Below the pieces are notes generated by a model. That model ran no database searches. It was not told where the DNA came from and saw only the letters and a list, made by a program, of their open reading frames with translations. Source: Planctomycetota bacterium (GTDB taxonomy: Bacteria > Planctomycetota > Phycisphaerae > Phycisphaerales > SM1A02). From it: 33,114 nucleotides of DNA. The stretch lies in NCBI GenBank assembly GCA_014381305.1, contig JACNLW010000050.1, positions 1 through 33,114 of the forward strand, written 5' to 3'. The position numbers and the translations under genes are program-made. This document shows, piece by piece, positions 18,623 to 31,560 of the stretch (its first letter is position 1; each line of letters begins with the position of its first letter).

Positions 18623-21552
18623 CGCCCATGAAGGTATCATGCACGCCCGTGAGATATTGGAGCCAACTCATCCTACTTTGCCTGATCACCGCAACTGCAA
18701 CTGCGCAAGATGTGCAATTCAAAAATGTACAAATTACTGGCGATCGACTTTCAGGAGTAGTGTTACCTGTACTCCCTAGAGATGCTGAAATTACTATTCT
18801 CGCACTCCGCGCTGACGCGTGGACTGTTGACGATACAAAACGATTAGTTCTCTCTACAGACATCGTGATTTCAATTGGCACGTACACCTTCCAATCTGAA
18901 AAAGCTTCTGTCTGGATCAATCGAATGCCAACTGATCGCGGCGTTGTCTCCCAGATTGCCGTGTACATGCCAACATCAACTCGCACAGGCGGTAGAACTG
19001 CACTTGGCGCAGAAGGCAAGGATTTGCTCATAGTCGGCAGCACACTCGGTGGAATCAACATGGATGTTGCACTACTTACTCCGAAAAAACCCGCCAACCA
19101 ACGAGCATTTATTCAACAATCAGAGAACAGACTTGCTGGGTATATTCAGCGTTTGAGACTGGGCGAAACAACACTTTCTATGCACCCTGAAGTCATTGCA
19201 TTTCCCGAGCCTGCAAGCAGTGATGAAACACTCATTTCACAAGTTCCAGTTAAACAAACGAAACAACCATGGCTCCGAACAAAATCTGGAATCATGTCAA
19301 TTACTGCAGATACAGTTGAACTCAAGACAAGTGATACTGAAAATATTGTCACAGTTGTTGGAAACGTTGTACTAGAACTCCGATCTGCATCAGGCATCGA
19401 TGACATGCAAATGACAGCGGATCGAGCTGTTATTTTTACTGATCCCGGTTCAATTAGAGATATGGCTTCTGGAAAAATTGATTCGCAAGACATTCGCGGC
19501 ATCTATCTTGAAGGAAACGTCCTTGTTGATTCAAATCATGGCGCCTACCTCGTTCGATCTCCGCAAGCGTACTACGATTTTACAAAAGACAACGCAATGC
19601 TCGTGGACGCAGTACTCCGCACGTACGCAATGAAAGGAAAAGTCCCGCTTTTTGTCCGTGCTAAAGAAATGCGCCAAATTGCTGTCGATCAATGGACTGC
19701 GCAAGACGTGCAAGTTTCAACAAGTTCATTCGCAACGCCTGACCTCGCAATTGGTTCAAGTAGCATCAAATTAACTGAACAGCCCGATGGAAATATGTTG
19801 ATCCAATCGAAGCACAACACATTACGAATGGGTGGCACACCAATCTTTTATTGGCCCTACTACGAGGGCGAAGCAAACGATATTCCAATCCATAAAGTGA
19901 AGTTTGGATACAAAAAAACATTTGGCAGTTTTCTAGAAACTGAGTGGGATCTCTTTACATTGCTTGGCATCCAACAGCCTAAAGGCCTCCGAGCAGATCT
20001 GAGACTAGACGGTTATAAGGCTCGGGGTGCAGGCATTGGATTAGACGTTGGTTACGCCTTTGGAAACAATAATGGTGACGTTGACATGTATTTCCTTGCT
20101 GATGCTGGCAAACAAAAAACTTCTTCCGGGATCGAAATGGACATCCCTGAAAATGAACACCAAAGGGGCTACGTGCTCTTGGAAAACCAAGCCAAGATCG
20201 GCGATCATTGGTCACTTCAAACACAACTTAGTTACATCAGCGATCCAACATTCATCTCAGTCTGGCGACAAAGTGATTACAAGAATCGCAGAGAATATGA
20301 AACAAGTTTCTATGCAAAATACCAAAAAGAAAACTGGGCATTTACTGCATTTACATCACATGATCTCAACAAGTTTATTTCTAACAGTTGGTTGATGGCG
20401 TCGAGGCAATACGCAGTTGAAAAAGCACCAGAACTTGGCTTGTTTCGATACGCCGATGACCTCTTCAATGGCGCAGTAACTTGGTCAAGCGAAACGAGAA
20501 TTACAAGAGAGCGAATGCGATTTCAAGATGGCACACCCGCCTCCAATGGATTAAAAAGGCAAGCATTTCAAATGCCAGGCGGCGGGTTTCTTGGCAACAA
20601 CCAACCCTTTGCAGATTTGTTTGCAGCGAGGGGTCTGACTGAAGGATTCAAAAGTAGACTCACAACAAGACATGAATTTTCTGCTCCTTTTACAGTTGGT
20701 GCATTCAAATTTGCACCTTTTGCCAGTATGCAAGCAGATGTGAACATTGGTGATGATGATTCGGGTGCAAATGAAGATGACACCAACTGGTTTTCAACAA
20801 TTGGTGTACGTGCCTCTACGCAACTACAACGAATTTTTAACGATGTTGATAACGATATTTTAGATTTGCACCGCCTCAGACATGTCATCGAACCGTACAT
20901 GACTCTTTGGTATGGTTCGGGCAGTGTTGATCCAATGTCAATTGAACAATACAACGCACTTGTTGACAATGTTTCAACAGGCACTGCGGCTTGGTTTGGT
21001 GTAAAAAACACGTTACAAACATGGCGTGGCGGCCCGGGTCGTTGGTACGAAATTGATTGGCTTACCGTTGACGTTTCATTACTCACTGTTGATAATAAAG
21101 CAACAAGACGGTACGACACGCCGCAATTCTTTAGTTGGCGACCTGAATATTCGGCACTTGAAGATTCTGTCATGGCAAAAAGTGTTTGGCAGGTGAGCGA
21201 CGGCGTCGCACTTCTAGGAAACGGAACATGGCTCACAGATGACGGGCGCATGGTACTTGGCGCTGTTGGCGCCGAACTTGACCATGGCAAGGACGTCAGA
21301 ACGTTTGTTGAGTATCGTGAGATCGCGAACAATGACGACCAATATCTGTCGGTTGGAGTGAAGTACAATCTCAGCAAAAGATATTCATTCCACGCAACTC
21401 CCACTTGGAACATGAAGGAAGATGACCTTCAATCTCTACGCTTGAACGTAACAAGACATTATCCTGATTTTGATCTTGTTGGTCAGGTGACGCACAACAG
21501 CATCAAAGATGAAACACAATATGGTGTCGCATTTCGTTTGTTGAAGTTCTGA
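18619..21552 (+). CDS. LptD/OstA-like outer-membrane LPS-assembly protein
   Basis: A 977-residue exported protein. A signal peptide (cleavage probably after TATATAQ) precedes OstA/LptA-like jellyroll segments: ITADTVELKTSD..., QDIRGIYLEGNVLVDSNHGAYLVRSPQAYYDF near 220-320 and a second set near 340-410. A transition typical of LptD follows (NTLRMGGTPIFYWPYYEG, VKFGYKKTFGSFLETEWDLFTLLG), then a long beta-barrel region ending in Phe (AFRLLKF), a usual outer-membrane C-terminus. LptD inserts LPS into the outer leaflet. Sequence divergence from proteobacterial LptD is large, so the symbol is withheld. A second ATG three codons in (18628) could be the true start. Last gene of the ribH train. Confidence 0.8.
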   Translation: MTPMKVSCTPVRYWSQLILLCLITATATAQDVQFKNVQITGDRLSGVVLPVLPRDAEITILALRADAWTVDDTKRLVLSTDIVISIGTYTFQSEKASVWINRMPTDRGVVSQIAVYMPTSTRTGGRTALGAEGKDLLIVGSTLGGINMDVALLTPKKPANQRAFIQQSENRLAGYIQRLRLGETTLSMHPEVIAFPEPASSDETLISQVPVKQTKQPWLRTKSGIMSITADTVELKTSDTENIVTVVGNVVLELRSASGIDDMQMTADRAVIFTDPGSIRDMASGKIDSQDIRGIYLEGNVLVDSNHGAYLVRSPQAYYDFTKDNAMLVDAVLRTYAMKGKVPLFVRAKEMRQIAVDQWTAQDVQVSTSSFATPDLAIGSSSIKLTEQPDGNMLIQSKHNTLRMGGTPIFYWPYYEGEANDIPIHKVKFGYKKTFGSFLETEWDLFTLLGIQQPKGLRADLRLDGYKARGAGIGLDVGYAFGNNNGDVDMYFLADAGKQKTSSGIEMDIPENEHQRGYVLLENQAKIGDHWSLQTQLSYISDPTFISVWRQSDYKNRREYETSFYAKYQKENWAFTAFTSHDLNKFISNSWLMASRQYAVEKAPELGLFRYADDLFNGAVTWSSETRITRERMRFQDGTPASNGLKRQAFQMPGGGFLGNNQPFADLFAARGLTEGFKSRLTTRHEFSAPFTVGAFKFAPFASMQADVNIGDDDSGANEDDTNWFSTIGVRASTQLQRIFNDVDNDILDLHRLRHVIEPYMTLWYGSGSVDPMSIEQYNALVDNVSTGTAAWFGVKNTLQTWRGGPGRWYEIDWLTVDVSLLTVDNKATRRYDTPQFFSWRPEYSALEDSVMAKSVWQVSDGVALLGNGTWLTDDGRMVLGAVGAELDHGKDVRTFVEYREIANNDDQYLSVGVKYNLSKRYSFHATPTWNMKEDDLQSLRLNVTRHYPDFDLVGQVTHNSIKDETQYGVAFRLLKF

Positions 21553-21565
21553 TTACTATCAATAA

Positions 21566-21578
21566 AAACTCACCCCCG
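21566..21578 (+). repeat. Half copy of the CTCACC palindrome
   Basis: AAACTCACCCCCG equals the left arm and centre of the palindromes that follow but lacks the GGTGAG arm. It lies 13 bases after the LptD-like stop and three bases before the first complete palindrome, so it looks like a truncated copy. Confidence 0.8.
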
Positions 21579-21580
21579 AA

Positions 21581-21607
21581 AATAAACTCACCCCCGGTGA
21601 GTTTATT
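21581..21607. repeat. Palindrome A; possible bidirectional terminator
   Basis: Perfect 12-bp arms AATAAACTCACC and GGTGAGTTTATT around CCC. The same 27 bases occur in reverse orientation at 21790-21816. A GC core with A-rich left and T-rich right flanks is the layout of an intrinsic terminator read from either side; it lies 29 bases after the LptD-like stop. The short T-run makes the terminator role tentative. Confidence 0.85.
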
Positions 21608-21628
21608 AGACCGCGGGTGAATTAATCG
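21608..21628 (-). repeat. Inverted 20-mer copy 1 (outer left arm)
   Basis: On the minus strand this reads CGATTAATTCACCCGCGGTC followed by T. The 21 bases are a perfect inverted copy of 21912-21932. It pairs locally with copy 2 at 21665-21685. Confidence 0.9.
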
Positions 21629-21664
21629 CATCATTTTGCATTATTTATCTGGGTGCTCTATCAG

Positions 21665-21685
21665 CGATTATTTCACCAAGGGGTC
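21665..21685 (+). repeat. Inverted 20-mer copy 2
   Basis: CGATTATTTCACC, then AAGGGGTC: a divergent copy of the 20-mer with one extra base. It is opposite in orientation to copy 1 (36-base spacer) and forms a nearly perfect inverted repeat with copy 3, extending outward through ATCA. Confidence 0.8.
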
Positions 21686-21700
21686 AGTTTCCTGCCATCT

Positions 21701-21733
21701 TCAAGAAAAACTCACCCCCGGTGAGTTTCTTGA
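21701..21733. repeat. Palindrome B
   Basis: The same CTCACC-CCC-GGTGAG core as palindrome A, with different outer arms (TCAAGAAA / TTTCTTGA, two extra A residues on the left). The outer arms have changed in step with each other, so pairing seems to be kept. Confidence 0.85.
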
Positions 21734-21753
21734 TTTCAGCGGTCATTTTCCTT

Positions 21754-21777
21754 AAACTCACCCCCGGTGAGTTTATT
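21754..21777. repeat. Palindrome C
   Basis: AAACTCACC-CCC-GGTGAGTTT followed by ATT. These 24 bases are the exact reverse complement of 21790-21813, so C and D could also pair with each other across a 12-base loop and form one long hairpin. Confidence 0.85.
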
Positions 21778-21789
21778 CTTCAATTGCAA

Positions 21790-21816
21790 AATAAACTCAC
21801 CGGGGGTGAGTTTATT
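21790..21816. repeat. Palindrome D
   Basis: AATAAACTCACC-GGG-GGTGAGTTTATT, the exact reverse complement of palindrome A (27 bases). The GGG centre shows that this copy is inverted relative to A, B and C. Confidence 0.88.
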
Positions 21817-21853
21817 CAAAAGAATAGAGAAATGGTGGAGATTGGAAGGAGTT

Positions 21854-21873
21854 GACCCCGGGTGAAATAATCG
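21854..21873 (-). repeat. Inverted 20-mer copy 3
   Basis: On the minus strand CGATTATTTCACCCGGGGTC, differing from copies 1 and 4 at two of 20 positions. It is opposite in orientation to copy 4 with a 38-base spacer, the mirror image of the copy 1/copy 2 pair. Confidence 0.85.
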
Positions 21874-21911
21874 TTGATCACGCACGTGGTCAGGTCCAAC
21901 CCCAAATGACA

Positions 21912-21932
21912 CGATTAATTCACCCGCGGTCT
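21912..21932 (+). repeat. Inverted 20-mer copy 4 (outer right arm)
   Basis: CGATTAATTCACCCGCGGTC followed by T, the perfect inverted partner of 21608-21628. If the element boundary is set at GACC/GGTC, the three bases outside each end are TTA (21606-21608 and 21932-21934), which could be a target duplication or chance. Confidence 0.9.
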
Positions 21933-21971
21933 TAAACGTGACAGGCAGCAAGTGGAGTTCGAATGCCGCCA

Positions 21972-22772
21972 TCACGAATGAAGTCCCGTGACCCACAAAC
22001 TCTCAAGTTGTGCAATCGTCAGCGTAGAGGGTCTCGCTGATGGATCAATACCTTCTGGCAATACTTGATCGCGACCAAGAATTGCACCAAGTTGTTTTCT
22101 TCTTTTTGTAAAGAGTTGTGTTACAAATTTCGCAAACGATTCAGACTCTTCAGGTGGCAATGTTTCTCGCCTAACGATCGACACACACGCACTTGTAATT
22201 TTGGGAGGAGGCCAAAAGCACGTTGGAGGAACTTTCGCAATCAAAGAAACATCAGCAAGCCGCTGGGTCAAAATTGAAAGGACTCCCCAATCTGATGAAT
22301 CCACTTCTGCCATTAATCGCTGGGCAACTTCAAATTGAATGGTGACGAACTCGCCTTCGCAATGTGGATGATTCGCCATCAAATCAACAATCAGCGGACT
22401 TGCAATTTGGTATGGCAAGTTAGAAACTAATTTCCAAGGCGCATCACCCATTGCCCTAGCAACTTCTTCGTTGAGATGACGCTTGGTGAGACAATCACCA
22501 CGAATGAGCTGGATCGAATCGCCCAATCGCTCTTCAACTAAATCGCCTAGACCTCGATCAAGTTCACAGGCAACTACGCGACATCCTTTTTCAAGCAAGG
22601 CTTCTGTCAACGTCCCTGTTCCAGGGCCAACTTCTAGAACTAAATCCCCTTCAGACAATTGGGCAGCATCAATCAATTTTGTCAGGACATTATGATCGTG
22701 TAAAAAATTCTGCCCAAAACGGTGACGCGGAGAAAGCCCACGTTCCGAAAGCATGGCTCGAATCTCACTCAA
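21972..22772 (-). CDS. rsmA: 16S rRNA (adenine-1518/1519-N6)-dimethyltransferase
   Basis: RsmA (KsgA) dimethylates A1518 and A1519 in helix 45 during small-subunit maturation. The 266-residue protein has the family length: GQNFLHD (20-26), the SAM motif LEVGPGTGTLT (46-56), CELDRGL, catalytic motif IV NLPYQIASPL (118-127), and the C-terminal helical domain with TQLFTKRRKQLGAIL. The start is a TTG at 22772, which gives the usual segment before GQNFL; the next ATG (22754) would shorten the N-terminus. It lies 11 bases after the efp stop, third in rny-efp-rsmA. Confidence 0.95.
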   Translation of the reverse strand: MSEIRAMLSERGLSPRHRFGQNFLHDHNVLTKLIDAAQLSEGDLVLEVGPGTGTLTEALLEKGCRVVACELDRGLGDLVEERLGDSIQLIRGDCLTKRHLNEEVARAMGDAPWKLVSNLPYQIASPLIVDLMANHPHCEGEFVTIQFEVAQRLMAEVDSSDWGVLSILTQRLADVSLIAKVPPTCFWPPPKITSACVSIVRRETLPPEESESFAKFVTQLFTKRRKQLGAILGRDQVLPEGIDPSARPSTLTIAQLESLWVTGLHS

Positions 22773-31486: not shown

Positions 31487-31560
31487 CGCGGATGACAGGA
31501 CTCGAACCTGTAACCTTCGGTTTCGTAGACCGATGCTCTATCCAGTTGAGCTACACCCGC
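31487..31560 (-). tRNA. tRNA-Arg (anticodon ACG)
   Basis: A 74-base cloverleaf. Acceptor GCGGGTG / CATCCGC pairs fully (one G-U); D arm GCTC / GAGC; anticodon arm TCGGT-CTACGAA-ACCGA with anticodon ACG at 31524-31526; T arm ACAGG-TTCGAGT-CCTGT; discriminator G. The 3' CCA is not encoded. ACG is normally converted to inosine-CG by TadA to read CGU, CGC and CGA. It lies 101 bases upstream of the pdhA ATG on the same strand with no obvious terminator between. Confidence 0.97.

Follow-up and report, generated by a model that had tools for sequence, protein, structure and literature searches.

Large intergenic mosaics in which palindromes alternate with members of further repeat families are familiar from the dRS3 repeats and intergenic mosaic elements of Neisseria. 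R. baltica, one of the organisms named below, belongs to the planctomycetes. TIRtrons are the subject of passages of PMC3733652: RAYT-like genes are bounded there by non-GTAG repeats that carry a GGGGWSAS motif. Some of these repeats are self-complementary, others form dispersed families, and many such genes and repeats are mentioned for R. baltica. According to excerpts of PMC6006769, the TIRtron/TIRYT genes belong to subclass 2.1, have HTH-like tails and are each accompanied by a repeat family of their own. REPINs were defined in PMC3116915 and cleavage of single strands in vitro by TnpA-REP is reported in PMC8266576, both represented here by extracts. For the dRS3-type (CGTC) repeats, the passages of PMC3733652 drawn on here report no dedicated transposase.

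The locus analyzed here lies in a stretch of 33,114 nucleotides from a planctomycete of the order Phycisphaerales (contig JACNLW010000050.1), which as a whole is called the window. A cluster of palindromes has the gene of an LptD-like protein on one side and that of a KsgA-like rRNA dimethylase on the other; farther out lie genes for EF-P and RNase Y. The palindrome, P, has the form AATAAACTCACC-CCC-GGTGAGTTTATT. Most probably it is a short non-autonomous repeat of the REPIN/TIR type that is moved by a Y1 (HUH-tyrosine) RAYT-like transposase, and it is best read as a previously undescribed family of a known kind and not as a canonical GTAG REP. No publication describing P was recognised in the open-licence PMC literature on REPIN, RAYT, TIRYT and Planctomycetes.

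Architecture of the cluster

Four palindromes of the form CTCACC-NNN-GGTGAG and a half copy had been listed in an earlier note, made from the letters of the window, and all of them are present (Table 1), including the inverted member, D, with its GGG centre. Palindromes A and D are exact reverse complements over 27 nt, as had been described, and the C and D regions, also described as able to pair, do so at 87% over 38 nt. The outer arms of B, said to have stayed complementary, do pair (TCAAGA with TCTTGA), but only via a 2-nt bulge, and the perfect stem measures 9 bp. Selection for pairing in the outer arms, which had been suggested on this ground, is thinly backed: the three outermost positions of the 27-mer pair in 52, 69 and 66 of 101 copies. 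Folding of both strands, also proposed in the note, gave RNA-fold z scores of -15.2 and -15.3, about -15 for each strand of the 419-nt intergenic stretch. Two further features were found, namely a hairpin repeat, Q, in two copies with the arms GACCGCGGGTGAATTAATCG and GACCCCGGGTGAAATAATCG, and the inserted DNA that spans about 21553 to 21997.

Table 1. Repeats and other features of the palindrome cluster, in window coordinates
Feature	Position	Strand	Remark
Half copy AATAAAAACTCACCCCCG	21561-21578	+	left edge of the cluster
Palindrome A, 27 nt	21581-21607	+	centre CCC
Hairpin repeat Q, copy 1	21609-21685	+	arms at 21609-21628 (exact) and 21665-21685 (imperfect)
Palindrome B, core 21 nt	21708-21728	+	centre CCC
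B-C doublet spacer, GGAAAATGACCGCTGAAATCAA type	21729-21753	-	spacing 46 nt; score 16 vs 99% shuffle limit of 14
Palindrome C, core 21 nt	21754-21774	+	centre CCC
Palindrome D, 27 nt	21790-21816	-	centre GGG
Hairpin repeat Q, copy 2, inverted	21854-21931	-	arms 21854-21873 and 21912-21931
Third repeat S, GTGACAGGCAGCAAGTG...TTCGAATGCCGC	21938-21969	+	3 places in fetched own DNA
Inserted mosaic	21553-21997	.	alignment gap; without counterpart at the orthologous lptD-ksgA junction of three relatives

Copy number, range and placement of P

Genome counts were made with the exact 17-nt core ACTCACCCCCGGTGAGT. The window's own genome (1,878,999 bases, 114 contigs) contains 133 exact copies of it vs 0 of the reversed control, and chance is thereby excluded. 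The search of host and relatives advised in the earlier note thus found P elsewhere, both in the own genome and in one congener, although its range is narrow. Only two of 400 sampled genomes of the order carry the core, the window's genome and a congener with 10 copies, taken as NIOZ-UU88 because the site coordinates are identical; these are also two of the 13 genomes sampled within the genus, and 60 other genomes of the family sample gave none. A 21-nt version of P, run against named genome contigs in a scan whose scope possibly excludes the window's own genome, matched four stretches with 10 copies, all from the Planctomycetota MAG NIOZ-UU88. When a 15-nt pattern was allowed up to one mismatch, NIOZ-UU88 gave 11 places and the congeners G018 and G055 none.

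The count of intergenic versus genic copies, another check named in the note, was made on 85 exact cores from 38 own stretches. ORFs of 110 aa or more, taken from a crude ORF caller, cover 87.9% of the bases there, yet 83 of the cores fall outside them. The 44 P clusters in these stretches sit between convergent (16), tandem (14) or divergent (7) genes or are without a called neighbour on one side (7). Several P sites of the genome are close to a contig end, at a distance of up to about 100 nt. The hairpin foot varies over 101 copies, with the consensus AATAAA/TTTATT. Two A-T positions of the 21-nt core pair in 99 and 96 of the 101 copies; the invariance of the inner core is partly imposed by the search pattern.

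Doublets, spacers and half-sites

Cluster and spacing counts rest on the 100 sites listed out of 133. These form 57 clusters, 30 of which are single copies, and 23 of the 43 neighbouring P pairs are spaced 46-47 nt apart. Within these 23 pairs the orientation is CCC-then-GGG in 12, the same way in 6 + 5 and GGG-then-CCC in none; in the 27 clusters with at least two copies, the first copy has the CCC centre in 21 and the last copy the GGG centre in 23. Doublet spacers were compared for 26 own and 5 NIOZ-UU88 doublets. Of these 31, fourteen score above the 99% limit set by shuffles for a single spacer family, a score that is partly circular as the reference was drawn from the same loci, and a 30-nt spacer is identical between the own genome and NIOZ-UU88 (L039, L056).

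Half copies at cluster edges, scanned for both ways, follow one direction in 27 of 27 cases, which are not all independent as several share a cluster: each of the 14 on the left is of the AACTCACC type, and each of the 13 on the right has the complementary form. Other half copies are internal (7) or isolated (10). With up to two mismatches, Q arms have 107 matches genome-wide and occur within 250 nt of 21 of the 44 P clusters, and the junction GAGTTTATTAGACCGC was found again in 10 fetched stretches. From this proximity and the recurring junction it follows that the clusters are mosaics. Their make-up varies between places. Repeat S was found three times, in the window, L040 and L101, among the 294,187 own bases that were fetched. 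A 101-nt hairpin in G064 (L146), whose GACCGC start resembles Q by eye, flanks a related gene.

Insertion at the lptD-ksgA junction

In G018, 3 nt separate the stop codons of lptD and ksgA, and in G055 and G061 the two genes overlap, compared to a distance of 419 nt here. Alignment with G018 leaves a gap of 445 nt at the window site vs 22 nt in the relative. Judged from this comparison of sequences, the window cluster is inserted DNA. Its right limit (21997) is approximate because the end of ksgA lies within the inserted DNA; the insertion seems to have replaced the last codons of ksgA. At 21972-21997, where the ksgA frame ends, the DNA has no match in G018.

The comparison with G018 covered 40 of 140 contigs (11 of these cut at 20 kb) and one locus, and within this scope seven of the 44 P clusters had two-sided matches. 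Six of the seven sites are shorter in G018, so that the clusters there count as insertions relative to it, with gaps in G018 vs here of 22/445, 71/357, 178/518, 31/202, 34/176 and 41/256 nt. At the seventh the gap is longer in G018 (1179 vs 227).

RAYT-like transposase genes and their flanking repeats

NIOZ-UU88 has three Y1_Tnp genes, one of which (L073, 1471-2187) lies between P clusters with 3 palindromes upstream and 2 downstream; a 67-nt stretch on both sides of this gene is 98.5% identical. The window's own genome also has three Y1_Tnp genes, and no P was found within about 1.5 kb of any of them (n = 3). The closest own homologue of the P-flanked gene, C87:50814 (51% identity), is flanked on both sides by another dispersed palindrome, R = TTGACTCCGAGTCAA, found in exact form at 53 places of the own genome and often paired at 35-36 nt (for example at C87:50451 and C87:51316; L033, L145). 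In a quick FastTree analysis of the proteins, L073 and L072 group with this R-linked gene (local support 0.96).

The proteins match Y1_Tnp (Pfam) above the cut-off, and all four tested score 55-76 bits with the NCBIfam RAYT model, below its cut-off of 80. The top match of their profile in the PDB is TnpA-REP (4er8, E = 1.1e-6). Seven aligned proteins share HxH at H59/H61 and an invariant Y120, the putative catalytic tyrosine. Pfam searches of L073 at E up to 1 detected Y1_Tnp alone, with no HTH or DnaA_C domain; the L033 protein has a sub-threshold match to an AT hook.

A survey of the family found transposase homologues in 39 of 121 genomes. Repeats of at least 30 bits occupy both sides of the gene at 13 of 19 tested RAYT-like loci (L071, L155 and L157 among them) vs 4 of 200 swapped controls; the test covered 19 of 36 loci, the other 17 having given no ORF with the motif searched for. 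Ten of the 12 loci nearest L073 have two-sided repeats, three of these (L147, L148, L149) representing one genus, and L072 and L150 have no repeat on both sides. Flanking repeats are dispersed in relatives too, one repeat occurring 35 times in G037, 13 in G067, 43 in G089 and 6 in G023, and all 22 inverted pairs counted at 62 nt in these genomes share one orientation. In G012 the flanking palindrome is present at 5 places, two of which adjoin the gene.

The broken end of contig C36 was considered as the missing P transposase locus because of a doublet spacer resembling the spacer upstream of the NIOZ-UU88 gene. It was rejected: the neighbour is a penicillin-binding-protein-like ORF and not the neighbour found in NIOZ-UU88.

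Comparison with described systems

P resembles the TIRtron/TIRYT systems, as far as passages of PMC3733652 and PMC6006769 portray them, in that a P-flanked RAYT-like gene lies between inverted repeats without GTAG and the repeats form a dispersed, partly self-complementary family with copies close together. The GGGGWSAS motif given in these passages is fitted by GGGGTGAG in P and by several repeats of relatives (GGGGACAG, GGGGTCAG), but with respect to the gene it does not point the same way: GGGG reads outward at the edges of P clusters and inward toward the gene in relatives such as L147. Unlike the subclass 2.1 proteins outlined in the excerpts, the L073 protein has no detected C-terminal HTH or DnaA_C domain.

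With REPINs and REPtrons, in the extracts of PMC3116915 and PMC8266576, P shares short intergenic palindromes, inverted doublets of fixed spacing, a confinement to few lineages and a transposase gene between copies of the same palindrome, the last seen in NIOZ-UU88 and not in the window's own genome. By contrast with the elements in these extracts, P has no GTAG/GTGG/GGAG-type tag at the hairpin foot and is a perfect palindrome with a 3-nt centre, and the cognate gene is missing from the assembly of the high-copy genome. As neither the GTAG tag nor the HTH tail was found, P is described as TIR/REPIN-like with no named subclass assigned. The clusters are like the Neisseria dRS3 mosaics in mixing palindromes with other repeats, but P flanks a RAYT-like gene in the congener and the sequences are unrelated by eye.

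Proposed mechanism and alternative explanations

The likeness to REP and BIME and the small mobile element that the earlier note offered among its possibilities have been strengthened by copy number, intergenic placement, doublets, the P-flanked gene of the congener and the empty sites. In the proposed mechanism, a RAYT-like Y1 transposase acting on single strands would recognise folded P, cut beside it and join it elsewhere, and single copies, 46-47-nt doublets and larger mosaics would build up between genes as a result. We infer that P moves, that it does so on single strands, that this transposase moves it, and that the cognate P gene was lost from the window's genome or lies in an assembly gap; the gene may be missing from the assembly because contigs break at P. 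A mismatch counts against this reading: in the assembly of the richest genome no P-linked gene was found, and the genome with the gene has 10 copies. The missing GTAG-type tag, the RAYT scores below the cut-off, the two nearby loci L072 and L150 and the one longer gap in G018 also speak against it. If P has a role for the host as well, for example in stabilising RNA 3' ends, that role would come second.

A more elaborate form of the transposase reading is tentative and, on balance, rather doubtful. It posits a RAYT-like system with composite modules that comprise P doublets, Q and outward half-sites (AATAAACTCACCCCCG on the left, the complement on the right). Rejoining at a fixed point near the palindrome centre would add half-sites at the outer ends only, and the P population would persist or expand after loss of the transposase, perhaps via the R-linked homologue.

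The R-linked gene may serve both P and R. As a full alternative, in which C87:50814 also moves P and P has no dedicated transposase in this genome, the idea is unlikely. Its place as nearest homologue of the P-flanked gene and the high copy number of both palindromes speak for it, but R differs from P in sequence and in spacing (35-36 vs 46-47 nt), no P lies near this gene, and the excerpts of PMC6006769 assign a separate repeat family to every gene of this kind.

It is still less probable that P arrays are mainly host elements under selection, acting at gene ends as bidirectional terminators or mRNA 3'-end stabilisers. The strong folding of both strands is consistent with such a role, as is the convergent placement: 16 of the 37 clusters that have a called neighbour on each side lie between convergent genes, vs 37 of all 177 gene pairs in these stretches, a total that counts the P-bearing pairs. 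However, terminator-like sites are at chance level, with 1 in 21300-22200 vs 0.9 expected from shuffles in a promoter and terminator scan that was itself at chance level; 11 of 12 sampled congeners are without P, and relatives have almost no DNA at the lptD-ksgA junction. The terminator array put forward in the earlier note is weakly supported. The structured RNA that it also considered is not supported as a conserved element: the make-up of the clusters varies from one site to another and an Rfam scan of the window returned no family at the cluster, its sole match being a tRNA at 31487-31560.

It is very improbable that the P arrays serve to bind a chromosome-organising or regulatory protein. 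The well-kept 21-nt core would suit such sites, but part of the invariance of the inner core is built into the search pattern, and P is restricted to two of the 13 sampled congeners, in one of which it borders a transposase gene. A CRISPR array, to which palindromic repeats spaced 46-47 nt might point, is refuted by the changing repeat orientation, by short arrays spread over at least 57 places and by spacers that are not unique, 14 of 31 belonging to one sequence family.

With P read as a RAYT-mobilised repeat, transposase-linked palindrome families extend to a small planctomycete genome. P and R, with proteins 51% identical, form matched pairs of repeat and gene in one genus and allow a direct test of how the enzyme chooses its hairpin and whether repeats outlive their transposase.

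Further repeats near Y1_Tnp genes

Repeats of other kinds were observed near the two remaining Y1_Tnp genes of the window's genome. A 13-nt tandem repeat, GACCTGACCCTGG / GGTCTGACCCC, lies beside one of them (L031, 1950-2090), and GGGGTC repeats similar to it are present on both sides of L155. Near the third gene, a repeat array with a 12-nt period occupies positions 2063-2640 of L032.
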